DNA from: a virus | DNA: 21,296 nucleotides | IMG/VR virus record: IMGVR_UViG_3300044675_003745 | Coordinates: 1 to 21,296 of that record | Direction: 5' to 3' (one strand) | Part shown: in pieces, positions 2,063 to 21,296 of the stretch | How positions within the stretch are numbered: the stretch's first letter is position 1 | Layout of the letters: each line of letters opens with the position of its first letter | Notes under the pieces: model-generated | Told to the model about the DNA's origin: nothing | Seen by the model: only the letters and a program-made list of their open reading frames with translations | The model's database searches: none | Made by a program: the position numbers and the translations under genes

Positions 2063-3838
2063 ATGCCATCAGACACCTACATCTTGACTATTTCAGACGC
2101 TGGCGTTTCAGTGCCATCTGTCGGATCAGTAACGAATACTTCCGTCGCAGCCGATGCCGCAATCGCGTTCAGCAAACTTGCTTCTCTGACTAGCGGAAAC
2201 GTGCTTGTCGGAAACAGCAGCAATGTTCCAACATCCGTTGCCGTTACGGGAGACGTTACAATTTCCAATACTGGCGTGACATCGATTGCCTCTGGAGCCG
2301 TCGTCAACGCTGACATCAATGCTTCTGCTGCTATTGCACACTCGAAGCTCGCCTCTATGTCGAGTGGGAATATTCTCGTAGGCAGTAGCGGCAGCGTTCC
2401 GACATCCGTCGCGGTCACTGGCGACGTTACTATTTCTAATGCTGGTCTCACAACAATTGCCAACGACGCCGTCACGTTCGGCAAGATGCAACCTGTATCC
2501 GGCTACTCGATCGTTGGAAAGCCAACGACTGGTACTGGTGACATCGCAGAAATTAGTTCCTCTTCCTTTATGCTGGAAGCCAGCACCGGATTCTTGCGTC
2601 AGGCAGACGCTGCCGCTGCCCGATCGACTTTGGGTATCACTCTCCCGCTATCTGTTGCTAACGGCGGCACTGGTGTTACTACTTCAACTGGTAGTGGTGC
2701 TAATGTTCTTGCTACTTCACCAACACTAATTACTCCAGTTTTGGGGACTCCAGCAGCGGGTAGTGTCCTCACTAACTGTACTGGCTTACCATTGACAACT
2801 GGCGTGACTGGAATCCTTCCAGTTGCAAACGGCGGTACAGGCGTCACTGCTTCAACTGGTACTGGAGAAAATGTACTGGCAAGTACTCCTACCCTCATCA
2901 CACCAATTTTAGGTACTCCGACATCTGGAACACTTACCAATTGTACCAACTTGCCCCTGACAACGGGTGTTACTGGTTCTTTGCCAGCTGCAAACGGTGG
3001 TACTGGTCAAACAGTTTATACTATTGGCGATGTCCTTTTTGCCAGTACATCTACTGCTTTATCAAAACTTGCAGACGTCGCTACAGGAAACGCACTTATT
3101 TCTGGCGGTGTTGGAGTTGCTCCGTCTTATGGAAAAATTGGACTAACCACACACGTAACAGGAACCCTTCCAGTTGCCAGTGGTGGAACTGGACTTTCTA
3201 CCATTACTGGATACGTAAAAGGAACTGGTACATCTCCGTTATCTACAAGTGCAACTATACCAGTTGCTGATATTTCCGGCATCCTTCCAGTAGCTAATGG
3301 CGGTACTGGTGTAACCGCATTAGCGTCTGGCTTTATTAAGTCTGATGGTACTATTCTTACTTCTAGTGCAGCACCAATTTCTATTGCGGACGGTGGTACA
3401 GGAGTCACTCAATCGACATACGGTGAGTATTATATTTCGAGCATTACCGCAACATCAATAGGCACAACTGGAACTTTTGTAAAAGTTAACGGAACAACAA
3501 CGGCGGGTTTTTTATCTAACTTCACACACCCTGCTAGTAACAGATTAACGTATACAGGAACTGCAACACGTAAGTTTTTGGTAGCGGCGGCGTTAAGTTT
3601 CCACGGGACTGCTACAAATGACTATAAGTTTGCATTTCATAAGAATACATCATCCCTATTAAGTCCGTCAATTATTTCAACAACTGGTGCAGGCGCTGGT
3701 GATCTGGCTCACGTATCGATCCAAACTATTGTTGAGTTAGCGACTAATGACTTTATTGAAGTGTTTGTTACGAATGCAGATGCCACAAATAGTGCAACCA
3801 TAGACTTCATGAACGTGACGGCAGTAGCACTCATCTAA
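2063..3838 (+). CDS. Tail fibre with ANGGTG repeats and C1q-like C-terminal domain
   Basis: 591 aa. Residues about 30-140 contain two tandem 57-residue repeats (AAIA-x-SKLAS...GDVTISN). Residues about 195-450 carry six copies of an (A/S/A)(N/S/D)GGTG motif such as LPVANGGTGVT, spaced by Thr/Gly/Ser-rich linkers, a hallmark of phage tail-fibre shafts. The last about 138 residues (from 454) form a hydrophobic, beta-rich region (VKVNGTTTAGFLSNF... FLVAAALSFHGTATNDYKF... IELA-type strands) like C1q/TNF-type trimeric jelly-roll tips. It lacks an S74 domain, unlike the fibre at 1-1358, so the virion probably carries two different fibre types. Host receptor binding is inferred. Confidence 0.85.
   Translation: MPSDTYILTISDAGVSVPSVGSVTNTSVAADAAIAFSKLASLTSGNVLVGNSSNVPTSVAVTGDVTISNTGVTSIASGAVVNADINASAAIAHSKLASMSSGNILVGSSGSVPTSVAVTGDVTISNAGLTTIANDAVTFGKMQPVSGYSIVGKPTTGTGDIAEISSSSFMLEASTGFLRQADAAAARSTLGITLPLSVANGGTGVTTSTGSGANVLATSPTLITPVLGTPAAGSVLTNCTGLPLTTGVTGILPVANGGTGVTASTGTGENVLASTPTLITPILGTPTSGTLTNCTNLPLTTGVTGSLPAANGGTGQTVYTIGDVLFASTSTALSKLADVATGNALISGGVGVAPSYGKIGLTTHVTGTLPVASGGTGLSTITGYVKGTGTSPLSTSATIPVADISGILPVANGGTGVTALASGFIKSDGTILTSSAAPISIADGGTGVTQSTYGEYYISSITATSIGTTGTFVKVNGTTTAGFLSNFTHPASNRLTYTGTATRKFLVAAALSFHGTATNDYKFAFHKNTSSLLSPSIISTTGAGAGDLAHVSIQTIVELATNDFIEVFVTNADATNSATIDFMNVTAVALI
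2156..2497 (+). repeat. Two tandem 57-codon repeats in the fibre N-terminus
   Basis: Unit 1 starts at 2156 and unit 2 at 2327 (period 171 bp, in frame). Both encode AAIA(F/H)SKLAS-x-(T/S)SGN(V/I)LVG and VPTSVAVTGDVTISN. Synonymous positions have diverged, so the duplication is not recent. Confidence 0.8.
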
Positions 3839-5744: not shown

Positions 5745-6347
5745 ATGGATTATAAAAACGACATGGATGAATTCATACGCGAGACTTTGCGTTCATCTCG
5801 CCGTATTCGGGATAAAAATTTTTCCCCGATTCAAAATACTGTCGCATCATCTGCGACATCTAGCTCAACTTTTTCAGAGACACAAATTCCCCTATCAGAG
5901 GCAATGAGGGTAAGGGGTGGTCTAATCGGCGTCGGCGGTGGAGATAGTTGCTCTGGCTTATCTCTCTACGTAAAAAGTATTCCTCAGAGCGGCGGCAATA
6001 AAGATAAAAAACAAGTCTGGATTAGCGGGGGCACAGTCGGCGGAGTAATCCCCAATGGAGTAGATCCGATAGAAGGTAAACAAATTGCTGCCGCCGGAAC
6101 GGGAAACGTTTGGGCTGGTGTGCGGATTACAGATGAAGGGGAGGTCGATAAAACAATTATTGATCGTGGTACTGGTGATCCGCCAGAGGATACAGACACA
6201 GATTTTTATTATCTTATCGGGGCTTTTCAATACGACGGAGATACACCGACTGTGAATAATTTTGGTTGCGGGTCGATAAATGTAACAGTTTGCCGAAAAT
6301 GGTACGCTTCAGAAGCTCCATATTTTAATGTTTATTTTGCGCGTTAA
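5745..6347 (+). CDS. Hypothetical virion-cluster protein
   Basis: 200 aa, unrecognised. The N-terminal about 30 residues are charged and helical (MDYKNDMDEFIRETLRSSRRI), followed by a Ser/Thr linker and then a Gly-rich beta region (RGGLIGVGGGDSCSG, WISGGTVGGVIPNG, GNVWAGVRITDEGEV) with acidic DPPEDTDTDFYYLIGAFQ near the end. The layout (short helical anchor, beta body) suits a small virion protein. It follows the 632-aa protein by 3 nt, and the next ATG comes 14 nt after its stop. Confidence 0.65.
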   Translation: MDYKNDMDEFIRETLRSSRRIRDKNFSPIQNTVASSATSSSTFSETQIPLSEAMRVRGGLIGVGGGDSCSGLSLYVKSIPQSGGNKDKKQVWISGGTVGGVIPNGVDPIEGKQIAAAGTGNVWAGVRITDEGEVDKTIIDRGTGDPPEDTDTDFYYLIGAFQYDGDTPTVNNFGCGSINVTVCRKWYASEAPYFNVYFAR

Positions 6348-19570: not shown

Positions 19571-20122
19571 TTATTGTGGTTCTAATTCAATAGATTTTTC
19601 TTTGTACTCAGCTGCGGAAACAGTGAGGCCAAACATCCTCAATACTTGATTTGCTTTCCCGATCTGAAGCGTAGGCTTTGATTTTTCTAAATCAATAATA
19701 AAACGTATTCCAGTTCCTGCATATCCGGCGAGCTGTTTCTGAGTCAAACCCAAAGACTTTCGTCTGTACTTTACTATTTGAGATATTGGCGAATATTCTG
19801 TTGGTTGGGTGGGAGTCGTTAATTCTTTTGACTTCTTTGGGATTGGGTTTTTTAGTTTGTGTTTATTTACCAAATTGAAGCCCATAAGTTTCGCTCTGTA
19901 GATCTCTACCGACTCTAACTCAAGAGCTTGTTCTTCGTTGTCATAGCAGTGAACTATTTCAACTTCGCGATCCATATTGCAAGAAGATATAATTTCTTTA
20001 CGCACAGCTAACCATTCGTCACTCCTGCCACAAGTCTCATAAGCTCTATCACCAACGCCTTTTCCAACATAGAAAATGGCTTTAGTGACTGGATGCTTGT
20101 GGCGGTAAACATAATATAACAT
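19571..20122 (-). CDS. GIY-YIG nuclease domain fused to HipB/XRE-type helix-turn-helix
   Basis: 183 aa. Residues 1-88 read as a GIY-YIG domain: YYVYRH (GIY-like), IFYVGKGVGDRAY (YIG-like with R26), ALELESVEI (metal-binding Glu, probably E70) and NLVNKH (N86). A polar linker (about 90-112) leads to residues 113-168, a HipB/XRE-like HTH: ISQIVKYRRKSLGLTQKQLA, then GTGIRFIIDLEKSKPT and KANQVLRMFGL. The gene looks more AT-rich than its neighbours, lies beside a tRNA gene, and has a 104-nt leader ending TATATTTTAATACC-ATG, which could hold its own -10. It may be a homing-type nuclease using an HTH for targeting, or a self-regulated nuclease. Each domain call is good; the biological role is open. 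Confidence 0.75.
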   Translation of the reverse strand: MLYYVYRHKHPVTKAIFYVGKGVGDRAYETCGRSDEWLAVRKEIISSCNMDREVEIVHCYDNEEQALELESVEIYRAKLMGFNLVNKHKLKNPIPKKSKELTTPTQPTEYSPISQIVKYRRKSLGLTQKQLAGYAGTGIRFIIDLEKSKPTLQIGKANQVLRMFGLTVSAAEYKEKSIELEPQ

Positions 20123-20226: not shown

Positions 20227-20300
20227 TGGAGCCCCATGAAAGAATCGAACTTTCGTCAGATGATTACAAATCAACCGTTTTACCATTAAACTAATAGGGC
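20227..20300 (-). tRNA. tRNA-Thr (anticodon TGT)
   Basis: On the minus strand: acceptor GCCCTAT pairs with ATGGGGC (one G-T pair), D stem GTTT/AAAC, anticodon loop TTTGTAA with anticodon TGT (20266-20268 on the plus strand as aca), T stem GAAAG/CTTTC with loop TTCGATT, and an encoded CCA after discriminator T. The anticodon stem GTTGA/TCATC has one T-T mismatch. G1-C72 and C2-G71 fit threonine identity. It begins 6 nt after the upstream gene's stop, so it is probably cut from the early transcript; it would supply ACA-reading tRNA. The 104 nt between it and the nuclease gene show no second tRNA or clear terminator. Confidence 0.88.
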
Positions 20301-20464: not shown

Positions 20465-20662
20465 CTAGATGCAGTTGTCCTCAAGGAACTCACGCTTGAA
20501 CATGGACTCCGTGATATCGGGATGCCATGACATGTAGGTCATGAGTGTCCGAAACACTGTGACAAGTTCTTCTAGCGGAGCGTCTCGCGGAAACGAGAAC
20601 TCCATCTTGCTTCCTTCATGTGGAATCTCCACGCTGATTTTCATTCGTCGGTCGTTGTTCAT
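20465..20662 (-). CDS. Small hypothetical early protein
   Basis: 65 aa. The first part is a likely beta strand (MKISVEIPHEGSKMEFSF), followed by a helix (LEELVTVFRTLMTYM) and an acidic end. Unrecognised. The ATG overlaps the upstream stop (ATGA, 20659-20662), which supports the start at 20662; an internal ATG gives MKISVE. It belongs to the early transcript with the 51-aa gene and the tRNA. Confidence 0.6.
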   Translation of the reverse strand: MNNDRRMKISVEIPHEGSKMEFSFPRDAPLEELVTVFRTLMTYMSWHPDITESMFKREFLEDNCI

Positions 20663-21285
20663 GGGTAGTAGGAGTCGTGAGATTTAAGGTCGCAGTCTTC
20701 ACAGATGTACCCGTAAAGCCAATGATAAATTTTACGGCGACCGCATTTGCATTCGTCGTCGATTGGGGGTTCCTCTTTAAGGTCGCAATCTGCGACCTTA
20801 TCTTTAAGATCACAATCTGTGATCTTGCGGCGGTAGGTTCCGTTGCGGACAATTGAAGGCGTCATCCAATCTGAAACGTACACAGGCAACCAGTGGTCTT
20901 CACCGACATACACTTCATCACCGTCCTGTAGTTTATCGCCCTCTCTTAGGAGGACGTGGTATTCTGGTACGGTGTCTTCTTTAAGGTCGCAATCTGCGAC
21001 CTTACGGCGGTACAAATCAATGTATTCCACTTCTATCCCCATAGCTTTTACTATGCTCGTTTCTTTCCATTCGCCAACTTGTTCATCAAAGAACTCATCG
21101 CCTTCTTGAATTAACTCTCCTTTTTTAAGAACGCGGTATTCTGGTACGGTGTCTTCGTCAAGCGGACCCCAAAAGTCTTCGTATGACTCACCGCCGCCGA
21201 CATGTTTAGTTGGTGGCTCTTCGTCTTCGCCACGAATCCATTTAAGGATGTCAGCGAACTCACTCACTGTCAGTAGCTCACCCAC
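20659..21285 (-). CDS. Duplicated-domain early protein with CDLK repeats (possibly 5'-partial)
   Basis: 208 aa from a GTG at 21285, but the frame stays open to the window edge, so the true start may lie outside. Two copies of an about 59-residue module begin EDTVPEY(R/H)VL (residues 44 and 103), each with a G-(E/D)-x-(L/I)-Q-(E/D)-G-D-E motif and ending in YRRK. Between and after them are nine-residue units K-(V/I)-(A/T)-D-C-D-L-K-(E/D) at residues 95, 154 and 163; the DCDLK core recurs at 197 in a C-terminal zinc ribbon (CKCGRRKI...YICEDC). I recall similar YRVL...GDE modules in small phage proteins but no function. The repeat units are DNA palindromes. Confidence 0.75.
   Translation of the reverse strand: MGELLTVSEFADILKWIRGEDEEPPTKHVGGGESYEDFWGPLDEDTVPEYRVLKKGELIQEGDEFFDEQVGEWKETSIVKAMGIEVEYIDLYRRKVADCDLKEDTVPEYHVLLREGDKLQDGDEVYVGEDHWLPVYVSDWMTPSIVRNGTYRRKITDCDLKDKVADCDLKEEPPIDDECKCGRRKIYHWLYGYICEDCDLKSHDSYYP
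20684..20697 (-). repeat. Half-copy of the in-frame palindrome
   Basis: TTTAAGGTCGCAGTC-like half (plus strand) encodes DCDLK at residues 197-201, but the other arm has decayed to TTCACAGAT, so it no longer pairs. Confidence 0.55.
20778..20800 (-). repeat. In-frame palindrome copy 1
   Basis: TAAGGTCGCA and TGCGACCTTA flank ATC: a perfect 10-bp inverted repeat with a 3-nt centre, coding for KVADCDLK (residues 163-170). Confidence 0.85.
20806..20826 (-). repeat. In-frame palindrome copy 2 (covarying)
   Basis: AAGATCACA and TGTGATCTT flank ATC: a perfect 9-bp inverted repeat whose centre is 27 bp from that of copy 1. It differs from copies 1 and 3 at four bases that form two compensatory pairs, and codes for KITDCDLK. 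Confidence 0.85.
20958..21156 (-). repeat. Direct repeat marking internal duplication of 59 codons
   Basis: A 22-nt segment starting GGTATTCTGGTACGG is identical at 20958-20979 and 21135-21156 (period 177 bp, in frame). It encodes EDTVPEY and neighbours; outside it the two modules have diverged. Confidence 0.8.
20982..21004 (-). repeat. In-frame palindrome copy 3
   Basis: Identical 23-bp core to copy 1, about 204 bp away, encoding KVADCDLK (residues 95-102). The flank CGGCGGTA on the 3' side (plus strand) is shared with copy 2. Confidence 0.85.
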
Positions 21286-21296
21286 TACCAGAGAAC

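Follow-up and report, generated by a model that had tools for sequence, protein, structure and literature searches.

The sequence analysed here, referred to as the window, is a 21,296-nucleotide stretch of viral DNA (IMG/VR record IMGVR_UViG_3300044675_003745, positions 1 to 21,296) from a 21-kb virus record that may be a fragment. Near its end, three palindromes lie in a single minus-strand open frame (...YRRKVADCDLKE...YRRKITDCDLKD-KVADCDLKEEP...). In gene sense, the features of this region are as follows.

20659..21294, minus strand: carrier gene, open frame; 3′ part including the stop codon, with the start codon past the window end
20983..21003 (10-bp arms, 20982-21004), minus strand: first palindrome, AAGGTCGCAGATTGCGACCTT, encoding KVADCDL
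20806..20826 (9-bp arms), minus strand: second palindrome, the other allele, AAGATCACAGATTGTGATCTT, encoding KITDCDL
20779..20799 (10-bp arms, 20778-20800), minus strand: third palindrome, 27 bp after the second and of the same sequence as the first
20683..20698, minus strand: half copy (TGCGACCTTAAA at 20683-20694), at the end of a zinc-ribbon-like tail (YICEDCDLK)

The initial annotation had described three perfect palindromes lying in frame within one gene, and a pattern scan, shuffles and translation confirmed this description. Exactly three matches to AAGRTCRCA-NNN-TGYGAYCTT were found in the whole window, with perfect arms of 9 bp in all three and of 10 bp in the outer two. Dinucleotide shuffles of the window gave a mean of 0.07 matches when up to three mismatches were allowed, and none of 100 shuffles reached three. 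Synonymous-codon shuffling of the carrier gene (n = 3000) produced no palindrome in 2955 cases and one in 45, compared with the three observed, and of the 1536 possible codings of KVADCDL and the 1152 of KITDCDL, just 2 each yield perfect 9-bp arms. The three palindromes are beyond chance expectation. Copies one and three are indeed identical, and copy two carries both of the paired changes originally noted (GTC to ATC together with the silent GAC to GAT, and GCA to ACA together with the silent TGC to TGT). The half copy resembles the unit in one arm, and most close relatives have CEIK or CDIK at its position.

The carrier gene and its phage relatives

The N-terminal part of the carrier protein, as seen in a full-length relative, is a dATP/dGTP diphosphohydrolase N-terminal domain (PF18909, E = 7e-29). 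The tail consists of modules of about 59 amino acids ending in YRRK, followed by a Cys-rich end, and the palindromes lie at module borders. A search of the phage collection returned no named relative of the protein, and the tail matched nothing in Pfam or PHROG. Homologues of the gene exist both with and without palindromes; a typical module border lacking one reads YRRKVEANEPDLCTCGR (L375), compared with YRRKITDCDLKDKVADCDLKEEPPIDDECKCGR in the window. One relative (L365) carries its copy at about residue 142, while elsewhere copies sit at the YRRK borders, so the unit does sit at differing protein positions, a point that the initial annotation had proposed to check. Modules bounded by palindromes have been gained and lost among the phages.

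Arm covariation across homologues was another check proposed initially. Among 25 distinct phage copies, the inner pairs (offsets 2-7) were paired in 23-25, and the outer pairs decay in several copies. Variation in the family amounts to two alleles, GTCGCA/TGCGAC and ATCACA/TGTGAT, and unpaired mixtures of the two occur in L268/L359 and L269/L351, which look like recombinants. Since only two alleles are present and these sometimes recombine, the phage family alone is no proof of selection on the palindrome. The peptides VADCDL and ITNCDL are themselves conserved within the family.

Several other features of the window and of related phages were recorded. A tRNA-Thr gene (anticodon TGT; 20227-20300, minus strand; ARAGORN and Rfam agree) adjoins the carrier gene. 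A 183-amino-acid protein (19571-20122, minus strand) has an N-terminal part that reads as GIY-YIG nuclease-like and, after it, a weak HTH_3 match slightly under the Pfam cut-off. The protein encoded at 2063-3838 (plus strand) contains six copies of a repeat of about 41 bp (VANGGTGVT-like) and is probably a repetitive tail or surface protein. Relatives of the carrier phage hold other long palindromes of similar build outside the gene (AGTAGGTTACAAATTGTAACCTACT, TAAAACATCCATATTGGATGTTTTA; L396:3710, L400:4985, L376:255 and L381:2256), and a further phage contig (L020) has a different palindrome, AAGTCAAGACGGTCTTGACTT, three times, at 5807, 6291 and 7718.

A palindrome family centred on ORF6N genes

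The initial annotation had proposed a search beyond this genome, and the unit proved to be widespread. The degenerate pattern used on the window was found in 86 viral-contig stretches, compared with 5 for a composition-matched control palindrome, and at no fewer than 130 sites in bacterial genomes of many phyla. Of the 130 bacterial sites listed, 115 are linked to ORF6N-domain genes: 92 lie in the domain itself, a further 21 no more than 300 bp away and another 2 no more than 1 kb away. The typical translation of the bacterial matches, ...FMFQLTxEExxxLRSQ[IF][VA]TLK..KYLPYAF, is that of the ORF6N domain. In 20 genomes there were 1-4 copies each, often clustered and mostly ORF6N-linked. Only 6 of 111 viral sites were linked to ORF6N, and no ORF6N gene was found in the window phage or in 14 related records (up to 66 kb, possibly incomplete); the phage copies must therefore either rely on a host protein or lack a partner. 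Beyond the 21-bp pattern they continue with AAAGAA, AAAGAT or AAAGAG, all among the commonest continuations of ORF6N arms; AAAGAA, which follows the arm of the first window palindrome, is the most frequent of these (37 of 272). Such agreement makes common origin much likelier than convergence, and the phage and ORF6N palindromes very probably form one family. No donor gene for the phage copies was found.

Matches encoding KVTICDLKTT (L007, L030, L032, L061) were set aside as a probable coincidence with what appears to be a natural nuclease motif. In many phages (L022, L044, L012, L035 and similar loci) the palindrome is a solitary intergenic copy, often with a run of T after it; these copies may also act as transcription terminators.

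An unbiased set of 90 ORF6N genes was assembled with the Pfam model and not by palindrome, from the three phyla of the Dyadobacter (G001, Bacteroidota), Omnitrophota (G007) and Legionellaceae (G013, Pseudomonadota) loci. In 84 of these genes the best-scoring palindrome lay at or near position 79 of the domain HMM, and 66 of the 90 beat all 60 synonymous shuffles of their own sequence. The palindromes, 21-41 bp long, share a near-constant centre, T-N-N-CAA-N-TTG-N-N-A, whose CAANTTG and flanking T/A hardly vary. Around it the arms (8-20 bp, perfect up to 20 bp) are variable in sequence yet complementary, with TTGAGGTCACAA, TTGAGGTTCCAA, TCTAAGGTGCCAA, TATGCGGTCACAA, TTGATATCGCAA and AGGTGGTCACAA among the forms found. 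Over 80 distinct sites, which were placed by taking the top-scoring palindrome in a set portion of the domain, a choice that favours the palindromic register, 93.5% of cells were paired, compared with 71.2% after shuffling and 26-42% in slid controls. Changes on both sides of a pair occupied 212 cells (47 shuffled), the covariation score was 0.573 (0.149 shuffled), and one-sided intermediates were almost absent. Parsimony on a tree built without the palindrome loop put the number of pair-type changes at about 24 for offset 4 and at 10-15 for several other offsets, rough counts given the low node support.

The palindrome is read in two phases, A in 71 genes and B in 13, which yield unrelated peptides (LRSQIVTS as opposed to VVTNCDHL). 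The phase B peptides at this DNA position are VVTNCDHL or LVTNCDRF, and KVADCDLK of the window shares their phase. Because the same DNA is read as unrelated peptides, it is the DNA that is conserved and not the peptide. In phase A, the third codon position stands opposite the second position of a codon in the other arm, and the silent base follows its partner: it matches in 51 of 52 cases for Ser TCN opposite V/A (27.9 expected), in 68 of 70 for the third base of V/A/G codons opposite S/C/F (43.4 expected) and in 49 of 53 for that of Thr opposite R/K/I (27.7 expected). The pairing of an amino-acid change with a silent change, first noted in the window, is general in the ORF6N gene family. Symmetry of the ORF6N-centred palindrome is very probably maintained at the DNA level. 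The original suggestion of selection on the palindrome itself is thereby upheld as far as conservation of the DNA goes; the window's own covariation comes down to two alleles, and the decisive covariation is that of the ORF6N genes.

Extra palindromes flank only about one in six ORF6N genes, a minority of the genes have one upstream, and a promoter operator is therefore not a general explanation. Two loci with several ORF6N copies were also observed. At L260:1061-1665, a degraded ORF6N gene precedes an intact one of yet another class; the loop of the degraded gene contains several palindrome classes, spaced about 34 bp apart. On a Parabacteroides distasonis plasmid (L429, 1310-3043), three tandem ORF6N genes are separated by 24 bp each; palindromes with differing arms occur in genes one and two, and none was detected in the third.

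The ORF6N protein and possible exchange of palindromes

An AlphaFold model of the ORF6N protein (mean pLDDT 80.6) shows a fold like that of antirepressors and KilA-N, with a long helix at the C-terminus. Its sole segment below 50, residues 73-78, falls in the loop encoded by the palindrome, which lies at a border between structural elements. Among viral proteins the fold matched KilA-N, antirepressor and regulatory proteins (best E = 1.7e-6); no solved relative was found by sequence, nor by fold in the PDB at E ≤ 0.001. The proteins match the PADLOC models of PDC-S05 (E = 2e-60 and 5e-63), which is a candidate defence system only and in whose definition no palindrome was found. One study that names PDC-S05 places it in a tree only, with ORF6N unmentioned. 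In the literature within reach, which included few subscription journals, no report linking ORF6N with such palindromes was found, nor any mechanism for ORF6N proteins.

The neighbours of the 90 ORF6N genes are mostly unrelated housekeeping genes, and no recurrent recombinase, transposase, integrase or defence gene was found beside them. The varied company makes the gene appear mobile-like, and suggests that ORF6N is a solitary, mobile-like gene. Plasmid copies in Bacteroides ovatus and Legionella adjoin integrases. On the B. ovatus plasmid (L427), two integrase genes flank a family palindrome at position 1862, and the ORF6N gene downstream of it carries its own in-gene palindrome.

At a Flavobacterium locus beside the gene for a 436-amino-acid protein, 15 of the 30 genomes have ORF6N. 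No ORF6N gene was found in the remaining 15, and one of these offers just 339 bases downstream. Across related species the resident palindromes belong to differing classes, each with its own following loop.

Palindrome class TCTTTAAGG: loop LKKGRGxHQKYLP
Palindrome class TTCTTCAAGG: loop LKxGRGSNLKYLP
Palindrome class AATTGGAGG: loop SNS-KMGLRY
Palindrome class CTTGAAG/CTTGAGG: loop SSWGG

Arrays of palindromes, mostly of other classes, adjoin the gene on its 3′ side in L431, L434-L436 and L439 and on its 5′ side in L456. In L438, a chimeric palindrome is followed by the loop of the second class above, and in L432 what looks like a deletion between palindromes took the 3′ half of the ORF6N gene. 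From these arrangements we infer that the palindromes are exchange points.

Origin and possible role of the element

On balance, the window palindromes are probably copies of an ORF6N-centred DNA element whose arms are copied and recombined and which forms a putative site for ORF6N-type proteins. According to this model, the home of the element would be one fixed position inside bacterial ORF6N-domain genes. Either arm could template the other in a hairpin by template switching, and the palindromes would recombine with one another, thereby keeping the arms identical. The element would then persist as a putative DNA site used by ORF6N-type proteins. That last component is tentative, and we rate it somewhat below an even chance: neighbouring palindromes differ in their arms, which fits poorly with sequence-specific binding by one protein. 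The phage copies, as elements of class TTTAAGG, would have entered flexible linkers between the tail modules of the diphosphohydrolase protein, where they may be tolerated passengers and spots of module gain and loss, or decoys for a host ORF6N protein.

Template switching has been documented to make inverted-repeat arms alike, to invert spacers and to alter coding DNA (PMC8604942), and it is proposed both to generate and to preserve hairpins (PMC8794818). Homogenisation of the arms in this way could account for a large share of the covariation even if selection played no part. The centre base, left free in the search pattern, was T at 69, A at 60 and G at 1 of the 130 listed genome sites, and the tree implies about 22 changes in it; such a balance is expected if template switching or hairpin processing inverts the centre, the alternative being a sequence requirement for A or T. 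Known quasipalindrome hotspots of template switching share homogenised arms, inverted spacers and clustered amino-acid changes with the present case (PMC8604942, PMC8794818), but they are scattered mutation events, whereas here one site is kept in most members of a family. The same process underlies a rival explanation that is rather unlikely, namely that a neutral or selfish hairpin sequence, kept perfect only by template switching during replication, rides on the mobile-like ORF6N gene and is functionless both there and in phages. The two-sided changes with hardly any one-sided (G-U) intermediates, the near-equal use of A and T at the centre and the unrelated housekeeping neighbours of a mobile-looking gene all favour it. 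However, it leaves unexplained why a single site of a single gene family should hold the element across phyla and in two phases, why the centre (CAANTTG with its flanking T/A) hardly varies, and why genomes hold only 1-4 copies, mostly at ORF6N.

We consider it unlikely that the element is a recombination site at which crossovers, homologous or made by a putative recombinase, swap ORF6N loop cassettes and phage tail modules. The tracking of loop class by palindrome class in Flavobacterium, the flanking arrays of other classes, the chimera of L438, the apparent deletion of L432, the coming and going of palindrome-bounded phage modules and the L268/L269 chimeras would all be accommodated. Yet no recombinase recurs near the 90 ORF6N genes, though some plasmid copies adjoin integrases; the symmetric centre would give a recombinase no direction; and homologous recombination between 20-40-bp repeats would suffice. 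Less likely again is a reading in which ORF6N genes hold, within the sequence coding for their own DNA-binding-type domain, a self-encoded, class-specific site that at some loci is accompanied by an adjacent array of other classes; site and array would make up a cassette-exchange or self/non-self recognition system, possibly antiviral (PDC-S05), with the copies in some phages as decoys. An mRNA hairpin within the gene that tunes translation or mRNA stability is improbable. A conserved tip and a covarying stem, inside genes and at the border of protein structural elements, are what such a hairpin would present, but G-U mismatches on the sense strand (8) were not favoured over A-C (15), a comparison weakened by coding constraint on the drifting side, and wobble intermediates are nearly absent. 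Moreover, many copies lie outside genes, both up- and downstream, and an Rfam scan of the window and seven ORF6N loci matched only a tRNA. Chance, protein-level constraint or slippage in a single genome has a negligible probability. The conserved VADCDL/ITNCDL peptides of the phage family speak for constraint on the protein, but the codon shuffles and the two phases with unrelated peptides rule out both constraint and chance, and slippage is ruled out by the presence of the window's unit in many unrelated contigs and phyla. Of the caution initially attached to the palindromes, single-genome slippage can be dismissed, and homogenisation of the arms stays a live part of the explanation.

The palindromes had first been likened to the Rickettsia palindromic elements (RPE), which are about 150 bp long and occur in unrelated genes of one genus in many copies per genome (Ogata 2000, 2002, reviewed in PMC10969869). 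Both are in-frame coding palindromes that proteins accommodate in loops or linkers, here the low-pLDDT loop of ORF6N and the module linkers of the phage protein, with positions that differ among homologues. The likeness goes no further: the present element is shorter (21-41 bp), is present in 1-4 copies per genome and not dispersed, keeps to a single gene family across many phyla, and has covarying arm classes. REP palindromes are dispersed and intergenic, and their partner RAYT is an HUH (Y1) transposase. Like the present element, they are short palindromes that gather around a characteristic single gene, but here the main copy lies within the gene, the partner is the antirepressor-like ORF6N, and neither dispersed intergenic copies nor a recurrent transposase neighbour is seen. 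By the features tested, the element is neither an RPE nor a REP. Operators of phage repressors and antirepressors likewise place a palindrome in or near the gene of a protein with a KilA-N/antirepressor-like fold, and linkage to the gene of a DNA-binding-type protein is found here as well. Operators keep their sequence, however, whereas these arms vary freely yet stay complementary and differ between neighbours, and only a minority of ORF6N genes have a palindrome upstream.

Taken as an ORF6N-centred element, the palindrome is a natural case in which selection or copying at the level of DNA overrides protein sequence, at one codon position, across phyla and in two phases. It bears on whether template switching alone can sustain compensatory covariation over the long term, and hence on the use of covariation as evidence of structure. 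It also provides a handle on the ORF6N proteins, which are common and listed as a candidate defence family.
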